DNA of 55,114 nt from Methanobacteriota archaeon (GTDB taxonomy: Archaea > Halobacteriota > Methanomicrobia > Methanomicrobiales > Methanospirillaceae), in NCBI GenBank assembly GCA_029547605.1, contig JAKPPB010000070.1:1-55114 (forward strand), read 5' to 3'. Under the pieces are notes generated by a model. That model saw only the letters and a list, made by a program, of their open reading frames with translations. It did not search any database and was not told the DNA's origin. The number at the start of each line of letters is the position of its first letter. Within the stretch, counting starts at the first letter, position 1. Shown piece after piece: positions 18,490 through 35,694 of the stretch. A program made the position numbers and the translations under genes.

Positions 18490-21400
18490 ATGAGGACAGA
18501 AAGGCTAAGGTGGCTAGTCATACTTGTCCCTCTCTTCATTACAGTTGTATCCGGCACGGCCGGTTTCCCACTTGTTGACCTGCACATCGGTGATGCTGGT
18601 TTTGGAGACTCACTGCTGGATAATGCCCCCTACGGAATAGGCGGGGGAGAGAGAGGACTGGAGGAGACAGTAACGGCAATACCCCTGCACTTCATCAAGA
18701 ATGCAGGGCAGAGCGACGATGATGTCGAGTTCGTGGTCATCTCCGACGGAGGGTCCATCTTCTTCACCAGGGAAGGAATGAGGATCAAACTCGTGACATT
18801 GGTGGAGGGGACTCCCACTGCGGCACTGATAGGGTACAGGTTTGCCGGTGCTGAACCTTCCCCACGGATCGTGGGCATTGACCCCCTGGAGGGCAAAGTA
18901 CACTTCCTCGTGGGGAACGAGCCTGCAAAATGGCTCACGGGCGTATCAACCTACAGGGCTATCAGATATCATGAACTCTACGATGGAATCGACCTGCTCT
19001 ATCAGGGAACCCCTGAAGGTATAAAGAGTACATTCATTGTGGCACCCGGCGCCTCGCCACAGGATGTCACTTTTGACTATTCAGGAATAGAGGGGCTGAC
19101 GATCGGTGACGATGGATCGCTTTATGTCCATACAGCCGTTGGAGCACTTGTTGAATCCGCGCCTGTATGTTACCAGGAGATTGATGGCACAATAATCCCT
19201 GTCGATTCCTCTTACATTTTGAAGGGGAGCAACGGTGCAGGGTTTGCAGTCGGGCCCTATGATGCAAAACATCCGCTGTTCATCGACCCTGTCATGAAAT
19301 ACGGGCTCTACCTGCGGGGGATAGGGGTCGCATACGGGAGGTCTGTCGCCCTCGACGATGCAGGAAATGCATTCCTCACAGGTGAATCATTCCCTGCCCC
19401 ATACACGATGAGTCCTGGCTCACATGACATGAGTGGGGAAGGAATCGATGTGGTCGTAGCAAAGGTCAATCCTCAAGGGACTGCGCCACTCTTTGTAACT
19501 TACATCGGGGGAAAAGGTGATGATATCGGGCGAGGAATCAGCGTCGATGCGGAAGGCCACGCCTGTATCACCGGGCAGACAAATTCAACCGATTTTCCCA
19601 CGGCATCTGCAATAAAAGACACCCTGACAGGAAAGAACGACGCATTTGTCACCAAACTTTCTCCTGATGGCTCAGATCTCCTCTTCTCGACGTATCTAGG
19701 CGGAGGTGAAAATGATACAGGAAATGCAATCGCGCTTGACAGATGGGGGGATATCTATATCACGGGCAATACCCTGTCTTCTGATTTCCCGGGCATCCGG
19801 GTCCCCCACGAGACTACATACAGGGGAAGCCAGGACGCGTATATTCTCAAAATGAAGAGTGACGGATCCGACATAGACTTCTTTGAATTCATTGGCGGGC
19901 GCGGAATTGATGCAGGGAACGGGGTTGCAGTTGACCACCAGGGGAACTCTTATGTCACCGGGGATACCTACTCACTCGACTTCCCGGTAGTCAATGCGAT
20001 GCAGGGTGCCCTTGGCGGGAGCAGGCTGTCTGATGCGTTCATCACAAAGATTAGCCCTGATGGTAGTGAATTCGTCTACTCGACGTACCTTGGGGGAGGG
20101 CAGGTAGACTCTGGAAGGTCTATCGCCGTTGATGCAAAAGGCCGTGCCCACGTCACGGGAGCAACCATTCTCGGCGTCTTCCCGGTGAAAAATCCCTACC
20201 AGGGTGCAGGTGGATGTGCTGATGCATTCTACAGCAGGCTCTCTCCCGACGGCAGAACGCTTGAATACTCGACCTATATCGGGGGAGTCAACAACGACGA
20301 GGGCATGGGTGTCGCTGTCGACGACTGTGGGGTCGCATACGTAACAGGGTTCACGTTCTCCCCGGACCTCCCGTTGATCAACCCCTACCAGCGTTTCTTC
20401 GGCGGTGGTGCCCCCTACAATGTCGAATTGTCCGATGCATTTGTGGTAAAATTCGTCCCCTGGGACACGACTCCTGATTACGTGACGTTCCTCGGAGGAA
20501 ACGGGAACGATGTGGGTCGCGGGATTGCAATCAATCGTAAGGACTGCACCGACTGCGCCGACAATCGGACCTGCGTTTCCATTACGGGGTTCACAGACTC
20601 CACCAACTTCCCTTCGAGTAGCCCTTACCCCATCGCATTCGAGCCAAAGGGCAGTGGCGGTTTTCTCTTTACCCTGTGTGACGATTCTGAATCACCTGCA
20701 ATGCCGGTCGCGGACTTCTCCGCCGAACCCACTTCCGGATGCCCCGCCCCACTCCTCGTCCAGTTCACCGACCTCTCGACCGGTATCCCCACCTCCTGGA
20801 ACTGGTCTTTTGGTGATGGAGCCTTCTCCTCCCAGCAGCACCCCAACCATACCTACACCGCGCCCGGGACCTACAACGTCACCCTCACTGTCACCAATGT
20901 ATGCGGGTCTGATTCTCTCACGAAATATGAGTACATCTCGATATGCCCGATTTATCCCCCGGTGGCAGACTTCTTCGCTGAACCCACTTCCGGGTGCCCC
21001 GCTCCACTCCTCGTCCAGTTCACCGACACCTCCCTCAACAACCCAACCTCGTGGAACTGGTCCTTTGGTGATGGAGCCTTCTCCTCCCAGCAGCACCCCA
21101 ACCACACCTACACCGCGCCCGGGACCTACAACGTCACCCTCACCGTGACCAACGACGCAGGTTCAGACTCCCTCACGAAGTCGGAGTACATTTATGTCTG
21201 CCCATTCGTTCCCCCCATCGCCAGTTTCACTTATCTCTCAGAGTGCCCTGACTCCAAATTCGTCCGGTTCACCGATACTTCACTCAACAACCCAACCTCG
21301 TGGAACTGGTCTTTCGGTGACGGGACGTTCTCTTCCCAGCAGCACCCCAACCACACCTACGCCGAGATTGGGGGATACAATGTCACTCTCACCGTGACTA

Positions 21401-24400
21401 ACGACGCAGGTTCAGACTCCACGTCCCAGATCATCTGCATCGTTCCCTGCACTGAACCACCTATCGCCAGTTTCACCTACCTCTCAGAGTGCCCTGACTC
21501 CAAATTCGTCCGGTTCACCGATACTTCACTCAACAACCCAACCTCCTGGAACTGGTCTTTCGGTGACGGGACGACCTCCCCCCTCCAGAGTCCCAGCCAC
21601 AATTACGCAGCGATTGGCAGTTATAACGTCACCCTCACCGTCACAAACGACGCAGGTTCCAACTCCACCTCCCTGATCATCTTTATCCCAGATTGCCCGG
21701 TGCCGGTCGACCCCCCCGAAGCTGATTTCACCTACGTCTCGGAATGCCCTGATTCCAAATTCGTCCGGTTCACCGACACCTCACTCAATAACCCGGGGAC
21801 CTGGTTCTGGACCTTTGGCGATGGAGCAACTTCCGACAAGCAGAACCCGACCCACACATACTCTGCAACAGGCACCTACAACGTCACCCTTGCGGTCTCC
21901 AATTCCGGAGGGTCCGATTCCATCACGAAGAGCGTGTATGTGCCCCATTGTCCTGGCCCCATAGATCCTCCTGTAGCCAACTTCACGTTCTGCAGTAACC
22001 CGACCGATCGGCTCACCGTATACTTCACCGATACCTCTCTCAACAACCCCACTTCTTGGAACTGGTCTTTCGGTGACGGGACGTTCTCTTCTCAGCAGCA
22101 CCCCAGTCACACATTCCCTGCAGTCAGCGGCTACGAAGTCACCCTTACCGTCACAAACGAAGGGGGATCAGATTCCATCTCCAAGATTTTGTGCATCGTC
22201 TGCGTACCCCCGTGCCCTGAACCACCGGTCGCGGATTTCACCTACATCTCGGAATGCCCTGACTCCCAGTTCGTCCGGTTCACCGATACCTCTACCGGTA
22301 ACCCCTCTGCATGGTTCTGGCAATTCGGCGATGGGGCAACTTCCACTCTCCAGAACCCCAACCACACCTACGCCGGGATTGGGGGATATAATGTCACCCT
22401 GACAGTCTCAAACAAGGGAGGTTCTGACTCGATCTCCAAGATCATCTGCATCCCCGAGTGCCCGCCACCGAATCCTCCCATTGCGTGTTTCACTGCAAGT
22501 CCCCGCACGGGAAATGCCCCGATAGAAGTGGAATTCTGCGACTGCTCTGAAACTGATATCCTCACGTGGCAGTGGAACTTCGGCGACGGCGGCACGTCGA
22601 ACCTGCAGAACCCGCGGCACATCTACCAGGAGTACGGGTCGTATACTGTGAGCCTGCATGTGACCAATGCAAGCGGGCATGACACCGAGACGAAGGTTGA
22701 CTACATTCGCGTGTCCTCACCGCTTCCGGGACCCCCATCGGCCTATTTTGTGGCCAACCAGACAACAGGGATGGTGCCTCTCGCGGTTGCGTTCACTGAC
22801 GGCTCCACGGGATCCCCCGAGACATGGTCCTGGAATTTCGGTGACGGCGGCACGTCGAACCTGCGAAACCCCGTCCATGTGTATACGCTGCCTGGTTGGT
22901 ATACCGTCAGCCTCACGGTCGGGAATGCATATGGTTCATCGACTTACACAAGACCTGAATTCATCACGGCTCTTGGCAGCATTGGAGGTGACAGGGGTTA
23001 CTTCCTTGTCCATTCGAACGTGGATGGTGCCGCGGTCTCGTTCAACGATGACCACAAGGGCCTGATCGATGGGGGGACTCTCCTCGTGATGGTCTACCTG
23101 ACCGGGACCCCGTATACCCACTTTACGGTCGAGAAAGACGGCTATTACCCCCTGACCCAGCCGATCACCGCATACCCTGCGAAGGACCAGACACTCCACC
23201 TGTATGCGAACCTCACGCCCATCCCGAACGAGTTCACAATCACTGCGACTGCCGGTCCACACGGCGCAATCATCCCGAACGGCACATTCACCGTCCCGGC
23301 AGGTTCCACCCAGGACTTCGACATCATTCCCAGCCCCGGGTTCAAGGTACAGAACCTCTTCCTTGACGGCCACGCGCTCGGGCCAATGACGTGGTTGCGG
23401 CTTTCAGATATCCAGAGCAATCACGTGGTTGAAGCGTCCTTTGTCGAGAACGAGACGGTATTGTACGTGATCAATGCAACTGCCGGTCCAAATGGCCAGA
23501 TAGTCCCGGCTGGCCTTGTGCACGTTCCCTCCGGTGAATCTGCACACTTCGCGATAATCCCCTCCGCTGGCTGCGCTATCGCCGATGTCCTGGTCAATGG
23601 GGTCTCCGTAGGCCCGGTATCGAATTACACTTTCGAGGACGTGACATCGGACGGGAGCATTCACGCAACATTCAGCGTAACGAGCCACAGGATCACCGCG
23701 GGAGCAGGGCCCCACGGGTCCATATCTCCGTCGGGCCAGGTCCTCGTTGCACCGGGAGGCAACGCCCTGTTCTCGATCACCCCCGACCAGGGATACAGGA
23801 TTGCCGATGTGCAGGTCGATAATGTCTCCGCAGGAACCCCTTCATCCTACCAGTTCGTGAACGTGATGGAGGACCACTCGATCTTTGCCGAGTTTACAAA
23901 GGTCAACTTCACCATCACTGCGCTACCCACAGAGAATGGGACCATCATCCCCTCCGGGACACGCGAAGTGCCTTACATGGAGAGCCTGTCGTTTGAGGTC
24001 GTTCCTGACACCGGTTTCTTCACCGCCCAGCTCCTCATTGACGGGGGGAGCGTTACCCCGGTGCCGGTCTACACATTTGCAAATGTCGCCTCGAACCACA
24101 CCATCTCGGCAGTATTCCTGCCTGAAGGGTCGCTCACCTTCTACATCCAGGCAACTGCGTCTTCAGGCGGGAATATCCTGCCTTCCGGGAACGTGAGCGT
24201 CCCCGGGGGGAACGATATCACCTTCACCATGCACCCCGATTCCGGATATGCGGTCCAGAACGTGATGGTGGATGGTGACAGCAAGGGCGGGCTCCTTGAA
24301 TACACCTTCTTGGATGTCGCGATGAACCATACGATCAGCGTGACCTTCACCCCCTCAGGCGGCGGGGGAGGTGGCGGTGGGGGAGGCGGCGGCGGGGGGT

Positions 24401-24705
24401 ATATCGTGACCACGACGACGCAGCCCACCACGGTGCCCACCACCCCTGTTCCCGGGACAGAGGGGTACGAGAGCGGCCCTGGCGGTGAGACGATCACGCC
24501 TACCCCAACCGCGACTCCGGAGGTGACCGGCGTCGAGACCGTAATCACCACGATTCCCACCACGATTCCCCCTGCCGAGCCCTTCTGGACTCATTTCCCC
24601 CTCTACTGGCTGATACCTCTGATAATCATCATCCTCATACTGGCGGCCGCCGGATACTATTACTGGAAGAAGAAAAAGCAGCAGGAAGTCCTGTTCGAAG
24701 AATAA
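18490..24705 (+). CDS. Giant cell-surface protein: SBBP propeller, nine PKD, PEGA-like, five InlB-type repeats
   Basis: A 2071-residue exported protein. A signal peptide (about residues 1-26) is followed by an N-terminal domain (FIKNAGQSDDDVEFVV to about residue 270) usually found before SBBP repeats. Seven SBBP propeller blades (about 275-735, pattern VD..G..YVTG.T...FP) come next, then nine PKD domains (about 738-1497, each with W.WSFGDG), a PEGA-like segment, and five repeats of the type ITATAGPHGxIxPxG (about 1580-1955). The C-terminus has a run of 14 Gly (1957-1970), a Thr/Pro stalk, one membrane helix (about 2037-2057) and a KKKK tail. It is probably a cell-surface adhesin or structural protein anchored in the membrane. 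Many Asn-X-Ser/Thr sites suggest glycosylation. Neighbouring PKD units are nearly identical at DNA level. Confidence 0.9.
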   Translation: MRTERLRWLVILVPLFITVVSGTAGFPLVDLHIGDAGFGDSLLDNAPYGIGGGERGLEETVTAIPLHFIKNAGQSDDDVEFVVISDGGSIFFTREGMRIKLVTLVEGTPTAALIGYRFAGAEPSPRIVGIDPLEGKVHFLVGNEPAKWLTGVSTYRAIRYHELYDGIDLLYQGTPEGIKSTFIVAPGASPQDVTFDYSGIEGLTIGDDGSLYVHTAVGALVESAPVCYQEIDGTIIPVDSSYILKGSNGAGFAVGPYDAKHPLFIDPVMKYGLYLRGIGVAYGRSVALDDAGNAFLTGESFPAPYTMSPGSHDMSGEGIDVVVAKVNPQGTAPLFVTYIGGKGDDIGRGISVDAEGHACITGQTNSTDFPTASAIKDTLTGKNDAFVTKLSPDGSDLLFSTYLGGGENDTGNAIALDRWGDIYITGNTLSSDFPGIRVPHETTYRGSQDAYILKMKSDGSDIDFFEFIGGRGIDAGNGVAVDHQGNSYVTGDTYSLDFPVVNAMQGALGGSRLSDAFITKISPDGSEFVYSTYLGGGQVDSGRSIAVDAKGRAHVTGATILGVFPVKNPYQGAGGCADAFYSRLSPDGRTLEYSTYIGGVNNDEGMGVAVDDCGVAYVTGFTFSPDLPLINPYQRFFGGGAPYNVELSDAFVVKFVPWDTTPDYVTFLGGNGNDVGRGIAINRKDCTDCADNRTCVSITGFTDSTNFPSSSPYPIAFEPKGSGGFLFTLCDDSESPAMPVADFSAEPTSGCPAPLLVQFTDLSTGIPTSWNWSFGDGAFSSQQHPNHTYTAPGTYNVTLTVTNVCGSDSLTKYEYISICPIYPPVADFFAEPTSGCPAPLLVQFTDTSLNNPTSWNWSFGDGAFSSQQHPNHTYTAPGTYNVTLTVTNDAGSDSLTKSEYIYVCPFVPPIASFTYLSECPDSKFVRFTDTSLNNPTSWNWSFGDGTFSSQQHPNHTYAEIGGYNVTLTVTNDAGSDSTSQIICIVPCTEPPIASFTYLSECPDSKFVRFTDTSLNNPTSWNWSFGDGTTSPLQSPSHNYAAIGSYNVTLTVTNDAGSNSTSLIIFIPDCPVPVDPPEADFTYVSECPDSKFVRFTDTSLNNPGTWFWTFGDGATSDKQNPTHTYSATGTYNVTLAVSNSGGSDSITKSVYVPHCPGPIDPPVANFTFCSNPTDRLTVYFTDTSLNNPTSWNWSFGDGTFSSQQHPSHTFPAVSGYEVTLTVTNEGGSDSISKILCIVCVPPCPEPPVADFTYISECPDSQFVRFTDTSTGNPSAWFWQFGDGATSTLQNPNHTYAGIGGYNVTLTVSNKGGSDSISKIICIPECPPPNPPIACFTASPRTGNAPIEVEFCDCSETDILTWQWNFGDGGTSNLQNPRHIYQEYGSYTVSLHVTNASGHDTETKVDYIRVSSPLPGPPSAYFVANQTTGMVPLAVAFTDGSTGSPETWSWNFGDGGTSNLRNPVHVYTLPGWYTVSLTVGNAYGSSTYTRPEFITALGSIGGDRGYFLVHSNVDGAAVSFNDDHKGLIDGGTLLVMVYLTGTPYTHFTVEKDGYYPLTQPITAYPAKDQTLHLYANLTPIPNEFTITATAGPHGAIIPNGTFTVPAGSTQDFDIIPSPGFKVQNLFLDGHALGPMTWLRLSDIQSNHVVEASFVENETVLYVINATAGPNGQIVPAGLVHVPSGESAHFAIIPSAGCAIADVLVNGVSVGPVSNYTFEDVTSDGSIHATFSVTSHRITAGAGPHGSISPSGQVLVAPGGNALFSITPDQGYRIADVQVDNVSAGTPSSYQFVNVMEDHSIFAEFTKVNFTITALPTENGTIIPSGTREVPYMESLSFEVVPDTGFFTAQLLIDGGSVTPVPVYTFANVASNHTISAVFLPEGSLTFYIQATASSGGNILPSGNVSVPGGNDITFTMHPDSGYAVQNVMVDGDSKGGLLEYTFLDVAMNHTISVTFTPSGGGGGGGGGGGGGGYIVTTTTQPTTVPTTPVPGTEGYESGPGGETITPTPTATPEVTGVETVITTIPTTIPPAEPFWTHFPLYWLIPLIIIILILAAAGYYYWKKKKQQEVLFEE
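20701..22480 (+). repeat. Tandem PKD-encoding DNA repeats
   Basis: PKD modules repeat about every 82-85 codons with long near-identical DNA stretches. For example, 21220-21300 matches 21466-21546 except for two silent differences in the first 20 bases, offset exactly 246 bases. The block around 20751-20895 recurs at 21006-21150, offset 255 bases. Silent differences are few, implying recent duplication or gene conversion inside the gene. Confidence 0.85.
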
Positions 24706-24888: not shown

Positions 24889-25857
24889 ATGGAAGACACC
24901 ACGATGATCTGGATAGAGAAGTACCGGCCGGTTACGCTTGCTGATATCGTGGGCCAGGACGATATTGTGGAGCGCCTGCAGAGTTACGTGAAGACCGGGA
25001 ACCTCCCTCACCTCCTCTTCACGGGGAGCGCAGGAGTCGGAAAGACCACCGCTGCTGTCGCCCTTGCCCGGGAGTTCTTCGGCGAGTCCTGGAACCTGAA
25101 CTTCAGGGAGCTCAATGCGTCCGATGAGCGAGGAATAGATGTGGTGCGAAACCAGATCAAGCAGTTTGCCCGGACTTCTCCGCTGGGGGGCGCCACGTTC
25201 AAGATACTCTTTTTGGACGAGGCCGATGCCCTTACTCCCGACGCCCAGGCGGCGCTTCGGCGGACCATGGAGAGTTACGCCACTACCTGCCGGTTCATCC
25301 TCTCCTGCAACTACTCGTCGAAGATCATCGATCCCATTCAGAGCCGCTGTGCAATCTACAGGTTCAGGAGCCTCTCCGCCGAGGCCATTACAAAGGAGAT
25401 ACTGAGGATCGCGGAGAACGAGAAGATCAGCATCACTGGGCCGGCTATCCAGGCGATTGTCTATATCGCACAGGGAGATATGCGCAAAGCCATCAATGCT
25501 CTCCAGGGTGCTGCAATCCTCGCCCAGGAGATCGACGCGGGAATGGTCTACGCCATCACTGCAACGGCCCGTCCCGACGAGATAGAGGATCTTTTATCCA
25601 CCTCCCTCTCCGGGGACTTCGAGGGGGCGGAAGCCATCCTCCACCACCTTCTGCAGGATCGCGGTATTGCGCCAAACGAGCTGATCAACCAGTGCTACAG
25701 GACGATAGTAAGGCGCGAGATGGATCCCAACCTCAGGGTCGCCCTCATTGACCAGCTGGGGACAACGGACTTCCGCCTCTCAGAGGGGGCCAGCACCGAG
25801 ATCCAGATGGAAGCCATGATCGCACAGTTTGTGCTCCAGGCAAGGAAGCATGGCTAA
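24889..25857 (+). CDS. rfcS: Replication factor C small subunit (clamp loader)
   Basis: A 322-residue AAA+ clamp-loader subunit that helps load PCNA onto primed DNA. All motifs are intact: the RFC box WIEKYRP, Walker [12 protein letters not shown], Walker [11 protein letters not shown], sensor 1 [11 protein letters not shown], and the arginine finger in [11 protein letters not shown]-terminal collar domain follows. The ATG at 24889 ([14 protein letters not shown]) is preferred over 24844 because it gives the usual length and has GGGAG upstream; 24904 is possible. The stop overlaps the mcm start by eight bases, so the two replication proteins are likely translationally coupled. A second, degenerate paralogue lies at 34681. 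Confidence 0.95.
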
Positions 25858-27991
25858 AAGGGAGGAGGGCGCAGCCGCAGATGCTGCACCGGAGATCATC
25901 GATCGCGACGCAGACTGGAGCCGTTTTCTTAAAAGCAGGTATAAAAAGCAGCTCTCCGAGCTCTCAAGGGAGTATCCCTACCGGCGATCACTCGAGATCG
26001 ATTACCGTGAACTGGAGAGCTACGGGCGATCGGGCCTCCGGATGGCCGACGAGCTCCTGGACAACCCGGGGAAAGTCATCGAGGACGTGCGAAACGCCAT
26101 CAAAAATCACCAGCTTGTGAAAGGAAGGGACGGAAAGGCCACAGGGGAGGTGAATGTCCGGTTCGTGAACCTTCCCAGGAAGATCGGGATTCGGCACATC
26201 CGTTCCGATCACATCAACCGCTTCATCAGCGTCGAAGGGATCCTGCGAAAGACCACCGAGGTCCGCCCCCGCATCGTGCAGGCAGTCTTCAGGTGTCCTG
26301 GCGGCCATATCACCATCAAGGAGCAGGGATACGGAAAATTCAAGGAGCCGGACGGGTGTGCAACAGAGGGGTGCACGTTCAAGAAGCTTGACCTGATCGC
26401 CAGGCGCTCGCGTTTTATTGACTCGCAGAAGATCCGCATCCAGGAGTCTCCCGAGGGACTGAGGGGCGGGGAACAGCCCCAGACCCTTGACGTAGACGTG
26501 ACCGATGACCTGACCGGGAAGGTCGCACCGGGCGACCGGGTCGTCATCAATGGGATACTCCGGTCCATGCAGCGGGTCACCCACGGGGAGAAGAACACAC
26601 TCTTTGACATCTACCTCGAGTGTAACTCAATCGAGATTGCGGAAAAGGAGTTCGAAGAGGTGCAGATCGATGAAAAAGACGAGGAAGAGATCCTTGCCCT
26701 CTCTCGTGACCCTCACATCTACCGCAAGATAATCCACTCCATCGCACCCACCATCTACGGCAACGAGGACGTGAAGGAGGCAATCGCGCTCCAGATCTTC
26801 GGGGGGATCAGCAAGGAGATGCCCGACGGGAGCCACCTTCGGGGGGATATTCACGTCCTCCTCATCGGGGATCCCGGTATCGCAAAGAGCCAGCTCCTTC
26901 GCTACGTCGTCAAGCTCTCGCCAAGGGCCATCTACACGAGCGGGCAGTCTTCCACCTCCGCAGGACTGACCGCGACGGCTGTAAAGGACGAGTTCGGAGA
27001 TGGGAGGTGGACGCTTGAAGCAGGGGCGCTGGTGCTTGCAGATATGGGTATCGCGGCTGTGGACGAGATGGACAAGATGCAGAAGGAAGACCGTTCAGCC
27101 CTGCATGAGGCCATGGAGCAGCAGTCAATAAGCGTCGCGAAGGCGGGCATCACAGCAACCCTCAAGTCACGCTGCGCCCTCCTCGGCGCTGCAAACCCGA
27201 AACTTGGACGTTTCGATGCGTATCTCCCCATCCAGGACCAGATCAATATGCCAGGGTCACTCCTCTCGAGGTTTGATCTCATCTTCAAGATGAGCGACAT
27301 CCCGGACCATACCAGGGACAGCGCCATCGCCGACCACATCCTCAAGGCCCACAGCATCGGGGAGACCATCGCCCAGCACAAGAGGACACCCATACCCGGA
27401 GTAGACGACGCATACATAGAAGAGCAGCTCCGCCCCGTGACCCCGGAGATAGAACCTGCGCTTTTCAGGAAATACGTTGCATACGCCAGGCGTACCTGCT
27501 TCCCGCGCCTCAGTGACACGGCCCGTGAAGCCCTGATCGGGTATTACATGCAATTGCGGGACCTCGCGGCAGGTTCTGACAAGCCCGTCCCTGTCACCGC
27601 ACGGCAGCTCGAGGCCCTGGTACGTCTCGCAGAAGCGAGCGCCCGGATCCGTCTCTGTCCAACTATCGAGAAGAAAGATGCCGAGCGTGTAATCAAGATC
27701 GTCGACACCTGCCTGCGCGAGGTGGCCTATGACGCGAAGACCGGCTCATTTGACATCGACAAGGTCGTCACCGGGATATCGAAGGGGAGGAGGGATCTGA
27801 TCAGGGTGATCAAGCAGACAATCCGGCAGATGCAGAAGGACACCGGAAACGACCGGATCGCGATCGCCGAACTGATCGAGATACTGATGCCCCAGGGTTT
27901 CTCTCGTGAAGAGATCGATGCGCAGATCAAGGCATTCCTCCGCGAGGGGGAGGCGATGGAGCCTAAAAGCGGCTTCATCAAGTTGATCTGA
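25850..27991 (+). CDS. mcm: MCM replicative helicase
   Basis: A 713-residue archaeal minichromosome maintenance helicase, the ring that unwinds DNA at replication forks. The N-terminal OB/helical part (about residues 1-260) contains the zinc ribbon with ligands spaced CPGGH...CATEGC, a C-x3-H / C-x4-C pattern rather than four evenly paired cysteines. The AAA+ core has Walker [12 protein letters not shown], Walker [10 protein letters not shown], sensor [12 protein letters not shown] and arginine finger [11 protein letters not shown]-terminal winged helix ends the protein. The ATG at 25850 overlaps the rfcS stop. Nine T follow the stop codon, ending the transcript. Confidence 0.95.
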
Positions 27992-30571: not shown

Positions 30572-31444
30572 ATGATGCGGGTAAGGGAAATCCCCGAGAA
30601 AGACCTTAAAGCTCTCGGAGATGCAGAGTGGGTCGACCGGACGAGGCGTCCGTATGTCAAGGGGACGACCGCCTATGTGCCGGTGAAGGAAGGGTACCCA
30701 TTCACCGCGACCATTCCCCCAAGGAGAACCTACCGCGGCAGGGGATACTTCATGCTGGGTGATATGGCAGTCTTCCACGGCGACAGGCCCGGGGAGAGGG
30801 ATGTCCGCGTCCTCATGGAATGGAAGAAGCCGGCCGGCATCCTCTGGGTGGAACGCTGTGAGGGTGTCACGAGGACTCCCCGGGCAGAGGTACTCGCCGG
30901 GAAGTCCGTGGAGGTCCGGCACCGTGAGTCCGGGATCACATACTGGCTCGACCCGCTGCATATCATGTTCTCGATGGGGAACCGGGCCGAGAAAGAGCGC
31001 ATGCGCTCCCTCGTCCGTCCAGGAGAACACGTTGCCGACATGTATGCCGGGATAGGGTATTTCACCCTCCCCGCAGCGATCGCGGGGGCCCGGGTCCACG
31101 CCATGGAGATACGTCCCCTCTCATTTTCGTATCTCAAGAGGAACATCCGGGAGAATGGTGTCAGCCACCTGGTGACCGCGGAACTGGGGGACTGCAGGGA
31201 ATGCCTCACGGGGACCTACGATCGTATAATCATGGGACATTTCGGGGCCATTGACCATCTCCCCGCTGCACTCGCCCATTCCCGGCCGCGGACAGTCCTC
31301 CACGTGCATTCGGCAGGTGATCGGAAGGATGAGATCACGACAGTCCTCGAAGAGCAGGGGATCTGCGCCCGCGTGGAGACCCATAAGGTAAAGAAACTGG
31401 GGCCTCATACCTGGCATTACGTGCAGGACGTGACGCGGGAATGA
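30572..31444 (+). CDS. TYW2/Trm5-family tRNA wyosine-pathway enzyme
   Basis: A 290-residue class I SAM-binding enzyme of the Trm5/TYW2 family acting at guanosine 37 of tRNA-Phe. The AdoMet motif VADMYAGIGYFTLPAA and the preceding MFSMGNRAEKERM are present. Where Trm5 methyltransferases have an Asn-Leu-Pro motif after the strand RIIM, this protein reads GHFGAIDHLP. That points to TYW2 (Taw2), which transfers the aminocarboxypropyl group of SAM in wyosine synthesis. Two ATG codons (30572 and 30575) are equally good starts. The 3' end overlaps coaBC by four bases (ATGA). Confidence 0.8.
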   Translation: MMRVREIPEKDLKALGDAEWVDRTRRPYVKGTTAYVPVKEGYPFTATIPPRRTYRGRGYFMLGDMAVFHGDRPGERDVRVLMEWKKPAGILWVERCEGVTRTPRAEVLAGKSVEVRHRESGITYWLDPLHIMFSMGNRAEKERMRSLVRPGEHVADMYAGIGYFTLPAAIAGARVHAMEIRPLSFSYLKRNIRENGVSHLVTAELGDCRECLTGTYDRIIMGHFGAIDHLPAALAHSRPRTVLHVHSAGDRKDEITTVLEEQGICARVETHKVKKLGPHTWHYVQDVTRE

Positions 31445-32613
31445 GTGCCTCTGGAACACTTGGCGGAAAGGAGATCGTGCTCGCAGTGACCGGGAGCATC
31501 GCAGCGGTGGAGACCGTGCGGCTTGCCCATGAGCTCCGCCGAAGAGGTGCACGGGTCCAGGCGGTGATGAGCCCCGCCGCCTCTGGAATCATCCATCCCG
31601 ATGCCCTCACATATGCGACCGGCAGGCCTGCGATCACCTCTATCACCGGCATGGTCGAGCATGTCACCTCATGCGGCGAAGGAGGGACCGCGGATCTCCT
31701 GCTGATAGCGCCGGCGACCGCAAACACCCTCTGCAAGATCGCGGCAGGAGTCGATGATACCCCTGTCACCACTTTCGCCACCACCGCGATCGGCAGGGGA
31801 ATGCCGGTGGTGGTGGCGCCGGCCATGCACGAGAGCATGTACAGGCACCCGGGTGTCGCCGGGTGTCTTCGCACCCTCCAGGGATGGGGGGTCGTCGTGG
31901 CGGGCCCCCGGATCGAGGAAGGGAAGGCAAAGATCGCCGGTGTCAGCGAGATTGTCCTTCTCTGCGAGCGGGAACTGATGGAAAAACCTCTTCTCGGGCG
32001 CCACGTCCTCATCACCAGCGGCCCCTGCAGGGAGAAGGTCGATGACGTGCGGGTTCTCACTACCCGGTCGCGCGGGCTGATGGGCCGTGCACTCGCGATG
32101 CAGGCGTTTCGGCTCGGGGCCAGGGTCACGGTCGTCCATGGGGACCGGTTTTTTGGCGCAGAGAACGTGCATGCCACAGATGCACGGACGATGCACAAGG
32201 AGGTCTGCCGGATATGCACCGACGATCCGGTCGATCTCTTCATCTCTGCTGCCGCGGTCTCGGACTTTTACCCCGAACCCATCCAGGGGAAGATCCCAAG
32301 CGGAAGACCGGTAAACCTCACCCTCAATCCCCTCCCAAAGATCATTGATGAAGTCGTGGACCGCTTCCATGTGCCTACCATTGCGTTCAAGCTTGGAGAC
32401 GATGCCGTGGCAAGGGGGAGAGCAATGCTTCGGGGCAGTATAAGGCTCGTGGTAGCAAACGATCCCCGCGTCATGGGGGAGACAGACACCTGTGTGACGC
32501 TTCTTGGAGAAGGGGGGTTCATGCGTGAAGCCTCCGGCAGCAAGGATGCAGTTGCGGCCGAGATACTCGGTTGCGCATTGGAGATCTTCCAATTTTCGAA
32601 TAGAGTGACATAA
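31441..32613 (+). CDS. coaBC: Phosphopantothenoylcysteine decarboxylase/phosphopantothenate-cysteine ligase (CoaBC, Dfp)
   Basis: A 390-residue bifunctional CoA-synthesis enzyme. The N-terminal flavin-dependent decarboxylase (CoaC, about residues 1-185) shows VTGSIAA, DLLLIAPATANTLCKIAAG and VVVAPAMHESMYRHP. The C-terminal ligase (CoaB, about 190-390) shows VLITSGP, AAAVSDFYPE, KIPSG and ANDPRVMG. The ligase nucleotide-binding motif, commonly N-x-S-S-G-x-M-G, reads TRSRGLMG here, a modest deviation. Start and upstream stop overlap by four bases. With pantoate kinase and phosphopantothenate synthetase 490 bases downstream, it groups the archaeal route from pantoate to phosphopantetheine. Confidence 0.92.
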   Translation: MSASGTLGGKEIVLAVTGSIAAVETVRLAHELRRRGARVQAVMSPAASGIIHPDALTYATGRPAITSITGMVEHVTSCGEGGTADLLLIAPATANTLCKIAAGVDDTPVTTFATTAIGRGMPVVVAPAMHESMYRHPGVAGCLRTLQGWGVVVAGPRIEEGKAKIAGVSEIVLLCERELMEKPLLGRHVLITSGPCREKVDDVRVLTTRSRGLMGRALAMQAFRLGARVTVVHGDRFFGAENVHATDARTMHKEVCRICTDDPVDLFISAAAVSDFYPEPIQGKIPSGRPVNLTLNPLPKIIDEVVDRFHVPTIAFKLGDDAVARGRAMLRGSIRLVVANDPRVMGETDTCVTLLGEGGFMREASGSKDAVAAEILGCALEIFQFSNRVT

Positions 32614-33099
32614 AAACTCTTTTCCTGAAAGATAGCATCGCATATCTGAAAGGCCCAGGTCTTGAGGGGATGCTGCTCTGCATGTGTTGCGAATCCCTGA
32701 CATTTCATTATTTTTCCCTTCTCCACTGGTTGGATCCAACTGCATTCTCTTTTCAGGATAACGCTCCGTGATGCTTTGCCCCGGCCCGAAAACACCGTGC
32801 GGAGCAAGCCTGCACACCCCTGAAGTATCCCAATCGTGTCTGCAGGCTATCCCATCGGGGGCATTGGGGAGAATGTGGAAGGATTGATCCGCCTTTATTA
32901 TGGAAACAATCAGAAGAACGGCCAACCGAATTTACCTGGGTTGCCCCATTGTCTGGGGGAAGCTAGCCCAACGCACCTTTTTCCCTCACTCCCTGGAGAA
33001 ACCCGCCATTTGCGGGGGTTCAGCCCTGCCGGGTCACTTTCTTAAGCTTTTAACACGAACCAATTGAAAGAAAAGAACCCATTCCCTCCCGTGATCTTT
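32614..33099. other. Gene-free stretch with palindrome and hairpins; candidate RNA or regulatory locus
   Basis: No reading frame here looks protein-coding. The stretch holds an exact 12-base palindrome GTTGGATCCAAC (32729-32740), a stem GCTCCG/CGGAGC (32763-32805, with two further GU pairs), directly adjacent an 8-bp stem AGCCTGCA/TGCAGGCT (32807-32848), a TGGG..CCCC/GGGG..CCCA stem (32937-32970) and AACCCGC/GCGGG (near 33000-33020). A TATA-like CATTATTTTT lies at 32706-32715 and a five-T run at 32978-32982. No RNase P or SRP RNA signature was found. The end also serves as the pantoate kinase promoter (TTAAGCTTTTAAC near 33043). Confidence 0.45.
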
Positions 33100-33966
33100 A
33101 TGCCCTCCTTTGCCACTGCATTCAGCCCCGGTCATCTCTCTGGATATTTCATGCCCGTGTACGGTCCAGACCCCGCACACACGGGGAGCCTTGGCGCCGG
33201 GATAGTGATACGGGAGGGGGTCACGACCACGATATGGCCTTCTGATGATACAGAAGTGACCGTAGAACGCCGGGACCCTGTCTCAGGCAATGTAATCGAA
33301 GTATTTTCCACCTCGCCGCCCATCCGCTACCTCCTGGAGCGAATGGGGGTGACCGCCAGGGTGAAGACCATGTGCAGCCTTCCCATAGGGGCCGGGTTCG
33401 GCCTCTCTGCAGCAGCTCTCCTCTCCACCGCCACCGCGGCTGATGCCCTTTTCTGCCTCTCGCTTGGCGCAACAGAGTGCGGGGCACTGGCTCACGAGGC
33501 GGAGATTGTCCACAGGACCGGCCTTGGAGACATCGCGGCCTGCATGGGGGGCGGCCGGGACTGCAGGAAGGGTGCAGGGATCATGGCTGAGATCAAGCGC
33601 GAACACGACAGTCCCGCGTCCCTGTGTGCCGTAGTCTTCGGCCCTCTTCCCTCACCGGAAGTGCTTGGCTCGCCCGGAGCGATGGCAAGGGTCGTCCGGG
33701 CATTCCCCGGCCGCTGCCCTGGGGACATCGCGGACTTCTTTCGACTCTCCAGGAAGTTTACCGAGGAGAGCGGCCTTGCCACGCCGCAGGTCCTTTCTGC
33801 ACTGGCTGCCTGCGATGATGCCGGAATCCCTGCTACCATGACAATGCTCGGCAACGGCATCTTTGCCTCCGGTGAGGATGCCTTCCCACTGCTCTCACGC
33901 CTTGGAGAGGCATTCCTTCTCCACCCCGCGGACGAGGGTGTCCGCCTGCTCGAGGTGGGACAATGA
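33100..33966 (+). CDS. Pantoate kinase (GHMP family)
   Basis: A 288-residue GHMP-superfamily kinase matching archaeal pantoate kinase, which phosphorylates pantoate to 4-phosphopantoate. The glycine-rich ATP loop reads LPIGAGFGLSAAAL; the N-terminal FSPGHLSGYF and C-terminal MTMLGNGIFA are further GHMP motifs. The frame opens at 33064; the ATG at 33100 (MPSFATAFSPGH) best fits the family, and a GTG at 33091 is the alternative. No ribosome-binding site is visible. The 3' end overlaps the next gene by four bases. The next gene is the enzyme that uses the product, so the pair forms the archaea-specific two-step replacement for PanC and PanK. Confidence 0.9.
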   Translation: MPSFATAFSPGHLSGYFMPVYGPDPAHTGSLGAGIVIREGVTTTIWPSDDTEVTVERRDPVSGNVIEVFSTSPPIRYLLERMGVTARVKTMCSLPIGAGFGLSAAALLSTATAADALFCLSLGATECGALAHEAEIVHRTGLGDIAACMGGGRDCRKGAGIMAEIKREHDSPASLCAVVFGPLPSPEVLGSPGAMARVVRAFPGRCPGDIADFFRLSRKFTEESGLATPQVLSALAACDDAGIPATMTMLGNGIFASGEDAFPLLSRLGEAFLLHPADEGVRLLEVGQ

Positions 33967-34694
33967 TCCCCCCCACCCACCCCCGGTACCGGTCGCTCGT
34001 CGCGAGGGAACGGCTGGCACGCTATGCTGCAGAAGGGATTGTCTCCCTCGAAGGCCTTGCAGCCCATGGTCGCGGCGAGGCGTTTGACTACCTCCTCGGC
34101 GAGAGGACGACGGAGAGCGCCCTGCTCGCGGAGAAGGTGGCGGCCGCACTGATGCGTGGCGCAGAGAGGCCTGTCATCTCTGTCAACGGGAACACTGCGG
34201 CACTGGCCGCCGAACTCCTGGCCCCCCTGCAGGAGAATTCCGGGGCAAAGGTCGAGGTCAACCTCTTCCACCGGACCGAGGAGCGGATGCAGAAGATTAC
34301 CCGCCTGCTCCGCGATCACGGCGTCCGGGTGGAGGAGGGAGTTGCCGAGAGGCTCCTCCCGCTCTCCCATGACCGTGCCCTGTGCCTCCGGGAAGGCATC
34401 TACAGCGCAGACGTCCTTCTCGTTCCCCTCGAAGACGGCGACCGCTGCCAGGCGCTGCGGAAAATGGGCAAGACCGTGATCACCATTGATCTCAATCCCC
34501 TTTCGAGGACCGCGCGGAGTGCGAGCCTCACGATCGTGGATGAGCTCACGAGGGCTCTCCCCCACCTCACTACATTCTGCTCCTCCCTTTCAGGGGAAGA
34601 GGCCGCGGTCCTCGCGGAATCGTTCAAGAACGATTATTTCCTGGAAGCTGCACGCGATACCATGAGACGGGGGCTCCTCCATGCTCTGGATTGA
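33963..34694 (+). CDS. 4-phosphopantoate--beta-alanine ligase (phosphopantothenate synthetase)
   Basis: A 243-residue archaeal phosphopantothenate synthetase (formerly DUF137/COG1701), joining 4-phosphopantoate and beta-alanine with ATP. Family features are the start IPPTHPRYRSLVARERL, the central VNGNTAAL, the conserved VEVNLFHRTEERM, and the late ITIDLNPLSRTARSA. It overlaps pantoate kinase by four bases upstream and the second RFC subunit by 14 bases downstream, so all three are probably translated from one message. Confidence 0.92.
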   Translation: MIPPTHPRYRSLVARERLARYAAEGIVSLEGLAAHGRGEAFDYLLGERTTESALLAEKVAAALMRGAERPVISVNGNTAALAAELLAPLQENSGAKVEVNLFHRTEERMQKITRLLRDHGVRVEEGVAERLLPLSHDRALCLREGIYSADVLLVPLEDGDRCQALRKMGKTVITIDLNPLSRTARSASLTIVDELTRALPHLTTFCSSLSGEEAAVLAESFKNDYFLEAARDTMRRGLLHALD

Positions 34695-35694
34695 AAAGTA
34701 CCGGCCACGTTCATTCGACGAGATCATCGGGCAGGAGAAGGTGGTGGAACGGCTGAAACACTTTGCGTCTTCGCGAGCCGTGCCGCACCTCGTGCTGGCA
34801 GGACCTCCGGGTACAGGAAAAAGCGTAAGCGTGGAGTGCCTGGCACGTGAGCTGTACCGGGAGCATGCAGAAGAGAATCTCACCATCATCCCTACAAGCG
34901 ACCTCTTTTCGCTCGGCAAGAAATTCCTCGAGGGAGAAGAGCGGTATTCCCATCTTTACCGCGCTGAGGAGAGCCTGCTCTCAAACTTCAAGCGAATCAT
35001 ACGGGAATATTCGTCGCTTCGACCCCTGGATGCCGAGTTCAAGCTGATGGCATTCGAGGGGGCATCATCACTGCCACGCGAGGCCCAGCAGGCGCTTCGC
35101 CGGATCATGGAGCGGTCCTCGCGTACATGCAGGTTCATCTACTGCACGAGCCACCCCTCGGCAGTGATCCCCGCCATTGCATCCCGCTGTCTGCCGGTAT
35201 TCTTCTCCCCCATCCCCGACCCGCTCGTCGAATCCCACCTGCAGGCCATCTGCACCGCGGAAGCGAGAGGGGGGTGCCTCGTCAGGGAAGACCAGATCGG
35301 GCTCCTGGTTGCCGCCGCACGAGGAGATCTCCGGAAGGCTGTGATGCTCCTCCAGGTGCTTGCAGAGTCAGGTCCGGGTGCAAACCTCCTCTCCATCTCC
35401 ATGACAGAGACCGACCAGGTCGCGACCGCCGCATTCTCTGCCATTCGCGCAGGTGATGTCCAGGCAGCCAGACGCAGGCTTGAGACACTCCAGATCGAAT
35501 ACGGCCTCTCGGGGAGGGAGGTGCTGGGGGCGCTCGGCGACGTCGTGAGGCGTGACTTCAACGACCCCCGTATTGCCTGCGCCCTTGCAGAGACCGACTG
35601 GGTGCTGGGGCACTGCCAGAACGAGTACCTCCAGCTCAATACGCTGGTGAGCAGGATTGCCAGGGAGGCGGGTAATGTCCGGCGTCCAGGATAA
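34681..35694 (+). CDS. Second RFC small subunit with degenerate Walker B
   Basis: A 337-residue RFC small-subunit paralogue. It keeps the RFC box WIEKYRP, Walker A AGPPGTGKSVSVE, sensor-like FIYCTSHPSAV and the arginine-finger SRC (ASRCLPVFF). Walker B, however, reads LMAFEGASSLP where the active paralogue has [10 protein letters not shown]: the catalytic Glu is Gly and the following Asp is Ser. About 20 extra residues lie between Walker A and B. It may bind ATP but is unlikely to hydrolyse it. Multi-subunit RFC complexes with two different small subunits are known from Methanosarcina, so a structural or regulatory clamp-loader position is the likely role. Confidence 0.85.
   Translation: MLWIEKYRPRSFDEIIGQEKVVERLKHFASSRAVPHLVLAGPPGTGKSVSVECLARELYREHAEENLTIIPTSDLFSLGKKFLEGEERYSHLYRAEESLLSNFKRIIREYSSLRPLDAEFKLMAFEGASSLPREAQQALRRIMERSSRTCRFIYCTSHPSAVIPAIASRCLPVFFSPIPDPLVESHLQAICTAEARGGCLVREDQIGLLVAAARGDLRKAVMLLQVLAESGPGANLLSISMTETDQVATAAFSAIRAGDVQAARRRLETLQIEYGLSGREVLGALGDVVRRDFNDPRIACALAETDWVLGHCQNEYLQLNTLVSRIAREAGNVRRPG

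Follow-up and report, generated by a model that had tools for sequence, protein, structure and literature searches.

A second small subunit of archaeal replication factor C with a kept arginine finger and a degenerate ATPase site

What part can a clamp-loader subunit play when its Walker B motif is degenerate and its arginine finger is intact? The question is raised by an ORF at 34681–35694 (+) in the window, the whole 55,114-nucleotide stretch analysed here (contig JAKPPB010000070.1), from a Methanobacteriota archaeon placed by GTDB in the Methanospirillaceae. The ORF encodes an AAA+ protein of 337 residues, which scores 371.8 bits against the NF009067 equivalog (NCBIfam 'replication factor C small subunit 2'; curated cut-off 317), falls in the S2 clade, and has the fold of an RFC small subunit in a structure search. 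It is called RfcS2 below, and its gene rfcS2. The original prediction had described it as a paralogue with an intact Walker A and SRC finger and a destroyed Walker B, able to bind ATP and serve a neighbour without hydrolysing.

The two intact motifs are indeed in place. Walker A reads GPPGTGKS (residues 41–48; 34801–34824, +), with G41, G46 and K47 invariant across 50 RfcS2 proteins, and the SRC arginine finger occupies residues 168–170 (35182–35190, +), with Arg169 as the finger. Sensor-2 Arg218 (35332–35334, +) is also kept, as are the central-coupler Gln136 and the interface Arg140 (35086–35100, +; both residues invariant, roles from PMC8121543). The motif FEGAS (residues 125–129; 35053–35067, +) stands exactly where RfcS1, the active paralogue, reads LDEAD. 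This register is secure because the two proteins align without a gap from the Walker B strand to the finger, RfcS2 reading FKLMAFEGASSL...SRC. An alternative acidic pair serving as Walker B is excluded by the same register and by the end of the strand at residue 126 in the AlphaFold model. 'Destroyed' thus holds for the catalytic glutamate, replaced by G127, and for the second aspartate, replaced by S129, but not for the first aspartate, where another acid, E126, is kept. Beyond Walker B, the sensor-1 position carries Ser157 in place of Asn (35149–35151, +), and both residues of the proposed glutamate switch are lost, N76 and R81 of RfcS1 corresponding to P71 and S98.

Such an odd motif could in principle be a sequencing error or the mark of a decaying pseudogene, and its oddness is what speaks for that reading. 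However, an identical FEGAS recurs in separately assembled relatives at 95, 92, 79, 68 and 66% identity (L038–L041 among them), and dN/dS of rfcS2 against relatives is 0.07–0.14. The gene is therefore under purifying selection and the Walker B change is real, leaving an error or pseudogene with next to no credibility.

Nearly all of the archaeal RfcS2 family shares these losses. We compared 171 RfcS2 sequences from Halobacteriota, covering Methanomicrobiales, haloarchaea, a family (f7) read as Methanosarcinaceae, and three smaller families. The catalytic glutamate is kept in 13 and absent in 158, and the sensor-1 Asn is present in only 10, while the finger arginine is found in 171/171, the Walker A GK[ST] is kept in 168, and the first Walker B residue is acidic in 167. 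What replaces the glutamate differs between lineages. In haloarchaea it is Asn (LDNAE); Methanosarcinaceae use either Asn or Ser (IDNAE, IDSAE); Gly and Asp predominate in Methanomicrobiales (FEGAS, FEDAH, FDGAG), and the remaining families again carry Asn. Throughout the Methanosarcinaceae set (L142–L145, L147, L148, L150–L155) SRG also stands for SRC and the sensor-2 Arg is lost.

Orthologues with an intact site, which would have made the window copy an exception, were sought and set aside. A D–E pair in Walker B occurs in 6/171 sequences, from relatives of Methanocalculus, Methanogenium and Methanoculleus (L077, L084, L086, L184 and L187, with L101 partial). Five of the six were included as tree representatives, and in each of them the switch Arg and the sensor-1 Asn are missing. 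Across the 74 representatives, none combines the aspartate, the glutamate and the sensor-1 Asn, none combines the catalytic glutamate with the switch Arg, and the switch Arg itself is absent from all 74. The six D–E pairs show that Walker B is free to vary and not selected to be dead; it is drifting, with no single form preserved.

What is lost and what is kept can be told apart by scoring the 74 representatives at those columns where RfcS1 and the RfcS of archaea with one small subunit reach a conservation of 97% or more. In RfcS1 numbering, E111 is kept in 15%, D113 in 11%, the sensor-1 N141 in 3%, and the proposed switch residues N76 and R81, which correspond to Rfc4 N79 and R84 (PMC3740443), in 26% and 0%. 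Fully kept columns include G41, G46, K47, Q136, R140, R141, E144, F152, S168, R169 and G215 (RfcS2 numbering). By alignment position we read Q136 and R140 as the counterparts of T4 Gln118, the central coupler, and Arg122, an interface residue (PMC8121543). The loss follows function: RfcS2 has shed the hydrolysis machinery on the side of its own nucleotide and has retained the face that would complete a neighbour's site.

The partner subunits are present in the same genome, which holds one RfcS1, one RfcS2 and one RfcL, and hence belongs to the three-subunit type of archaeal RFC. The rfcS1 gene lies at 24889–25857 (+), scores 488.9 bits against NF001679 (cut-off 303), and encodes an active small subunit with LDEAD, the sensor-1 Asn and SRC; all catalytic motifs and the finger of RfcS1 are intact in all loci examined. 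It overlaps the start of an adjoining MCM helicase-like ORF on the same strand (25829–27991), the two spanning 24889–27991. RfcL keeps the Walker B DE pair and the sensor-1 Asn in 30/30 loci, and likewise the sensor-2 Arg. Its SRC motif has drifted in most of these 30 loci (AVT, KLC, SNS, GAC and others). One end subunit thus keeps its site while its finger drifts, and the other keeps its finger while its site decays. This mirror pattern fits what a pentamer would produce, in which the RfcL end needs no finger and the RfcS2 end no site. RfcL of the window genome still reads EIRSRC; for RfcL, then, it is the relatives and not this genome that display the pattern.

We consider it very probable that RfcS2 sits at the end of a clamp loader built from three proteins, at position E, where it donates its finger without hydrolysing its own nucleotide. 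In the pentamer, RfcL would occupy position A, RfcS1 the three positions B to D, and a single RfcS2 position E. The intact P-loop of RfcS2 would bind nucleotide mainly as a structural ligand, and Arg169 of the SRC motif, together with Arg140 and the Gln136 coupler, would be offered to the adjoining RfcS1 at its ATP site. The bound nucleotide would not be hydrolysed, because RfcS2 is without the catalytic glutamate, the second aspartate, the sensor-1 Asn and the switch residues, and would receive a finger from no other subunit. Where an active small subunit has a DExD Walker B and the sensor-1 Asn, RfcS2 has FEGAS and S157; the features of a position-E stator are found instead, with finger R169 kept and its own site degenerate (FEGAS, sensor-1 Asn and switch lost).

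An asymmetric hetero-oligomer of this kind, as the original prediction proposed, is well supported and not new. In the RFC of Methanosarcina acetivorans, RFCS1, RFCS2 and RFCL occur at 3:1:1, and the single RFCS2 is terminal and carries one binding site (PMC2880001, PMC3984812). M. acetivorans RFCS2 and the window protein are of the same family (above the NF009067 cut-off) and the same clade, have the same partner subunits, keep the finger arginine, lack the catalytic glutamate, and share the same insertion (described below). They differ in detail: Methanosarcinaceae proteins have IDNAE or IDSAE, SRG and no sensor-2 Arg, whereas the window protein has FEGAS, SRC and a kept sensor-2 Arg. Our own observations are the motif states, their family-wide pattern and the purifying selection; stoichiometry and terminal placement come from the published M. 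acetivorans work, and the mechanism of an E subunit from eukaryotes. That RfcS2 of the window organism is likewise placed at the end, binds nucleotide and has no ATPase activity we infer. The structure search, however, gives RFC chain E no preference over other chains, and PMC3984812, which likens the layout of the M. acetivorans complex to the gamma complex, notes that its subunit functions are probably not conserved with those of the E. coli gamma complex. Both points count against the proposed role, as do the acid kept at E126, the six D–E pairs and the SRC of RfcL in the window genome.

Two other readings of RfcS2 have to be weighed against the position-E role. It might be a slow or conditional ATPase in which magnesium is held by E126 while some other residue takes over the activation of water. 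The change from Asp to E126 leaves an acid at the magnesium position, as do 167/171 family members, so that weak activity is compatible with the sequence, and Walker A and, mostly, the sensor-2 Arg are kept as well. Nevertheless, the catalytic glutamate, the sensor-1 Asn and both switch residues are lost, and a subunit at position E gets no finger from a neighbour (PMC3331839, PMC3740443), which makes such an activity improbable. Less probable still is that RfcS2 works in a dedicated alternative loader or unloader, outside the replicative loader. Alternative RFC complexes do exist in eukaryotes, and rfcS2 sits with CoA genes, away from rfcL, but the genome offers one RfcL and one RfcS1, and the M. 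acetivorans RFC holds RFCS2 at 3:1:1. The position-E reading, with finger donation and no hydrolysis, is the one that we retain, and the family-wide motif comparison bears out the idea that RfcS2 can bind ATP and lend its finger without hydrolysing.

Terminal subunits of this sort are known elsewhere. The bacterial delta' stator, which belongs to a different family, likewise stands at the end of its complex and contributes an arginine finger while having no ATPase of its own. In eukaryotes the subunit at position E is ATPase-incompetent: yeast Rfc5 has a natural D141N, receives no trans finger, and holds ADP in its site (PMC3331839, PMC3740443, PMC8893722). The likeness of RfcS2 to such a catalytically dead eukaryotic subunit, which had also been proposed, stands at the level of function. 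Both have a degenerate Walker B and a kept finger; the eukaryotic subunit binds nucleotide without hydrolysing it, and RfcS2, with its intact P-loop, would do the same. In yeast Rfc5 (IINEANSL) and human RFC3 (LLTEVDKL), however, the aspartate is lost and the glutamate kept, whereas RfcS2 has lost the glutamate, and the parallel therefore looks convergent in detail. Orthology with eukaryotic subunit E was considered and rejected, as neither sequence nor fold search gave any special affinity to it and the E chain is not the one that RfcS2 most resembles in sequence. The eukaryotic subunit moreover carries a beta-hairpin, the E-plug, whereas RfcS2 has an insertion, predicted to be helical, after its NASD box. 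No such hairpin is seen in the AlphaFold model of RfcS2, which speaks for functional likeness and not for membership of the eukaryotic subunit family.

This insertion (residues about 75–96; 34903–34968, +), LFSLGKKFLEGEERYSHLYRAE, is specific to RfcS2 and predicted to be mainly helical, with helices at 72–78 and 80–85 in the AlphaFold model (pLDDT about 89–93). Every RfcS2 lineage has an insertion of roughly 18–28 residues directly after NASD, which in the same comparison is not present in RfcS1 or in the one-small-subunit proteins. It follows a conserved pattern, [LF]F..GK.[YF]L...[DE]RF, and adjoins the helix that contacts DNA and clamp. Homology with the E-plug is not supported, the insertion being helical and placed after NASD. 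A tentative scenario, to which we would not give even odds, is that Halobacteriota evolved a hydrolysis-dead stator independently of eukaryotes, removing the glutamate and its DNA switch together and not the aspartate that binds magnesium, and adding a conserved helical element (residues ~75–96) that does an E-plug-like job by other means.

In the tree, RfcS2 forms one clade against RfcS1 and the one-small-subunit RfcS with an SH-aLRT of 100, a value to be read with caution given the long RfcS2 branches; the shared insertion backs a common origin despite them. The second RfcS of Thermoproteota is likewise a duplicated archaeal small subunit, but it is without the RfcS2 insertion, and its LDEAD, its NASDERG box and sensor 1 are all kept. 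The copies examined (L285–L292) have a full catalytic site, and the Cys of their SRC mostly varies (SRV or SRT). Since both Thermoproteota copies remain catalytically intact, duplication alone does not yield a dead subunit and is rejected as its cause.

For RfcS2 itself the result is mostly an expected confirmation, the M. acetivorans complex and dead E subunits elsewhere being already known. Our analysis adds a phylum-wide count, the contrast with RfcL and, less expected, the joint loss of the glutamate and the switch, the conserved helical insertion found only in RfcS2, and an order-wide linkage to CoA genes. It offers a phylum-wide, sequence-level rationale for the published three-subunit archaeal RFC, and leads to mutational predictions on the number of ATP sites needed per clamp loader in a system simpler than eukaryotic RFC.

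The placement of rfcS2 among CoA-biosynthesis genes, noted in the original prediction, is borne out in the window. It is preceded on the same strand by coaBC (31441–32613, +; TIGR00521, 271.5 bits, cut-off 219.7), pantoate kinase (33064–33966, +; NF040725, 377.9 bits, just under the cut-off of 380) and 4-phosphopantoate–beta-alanine ligase, or phosphopantothenate synthetase (33963–34694, +; NF041123, 325.9 bits, cut-off 300), the last of which overlaps the start of rfcS2 by 14 nt. In Methanomicrobiales we examined ~107 loci, some of them shared between collections, and in all of these the synthetase gene is directly upstream of rfcS2. At the RfcS2 loci of haloarchaea, Methanosarcinaceae and the other groups it was not detected within 1.5 kb of rfcS2. 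This arrangement suggests translational coupling of the synthetase and rfcS2 within one order. The four genes (31441–35694) form a co-directional cluster conserved across Methanomicrobiales, a linkage not seen outside the order. Elsewhere in the window, at 18490–24705, an ORF of 2071 aa has the appearance of a surface protein: PKD-like segments recur along it, part of it is rich in glycine, and its C terminus bears a transmembrane segment.
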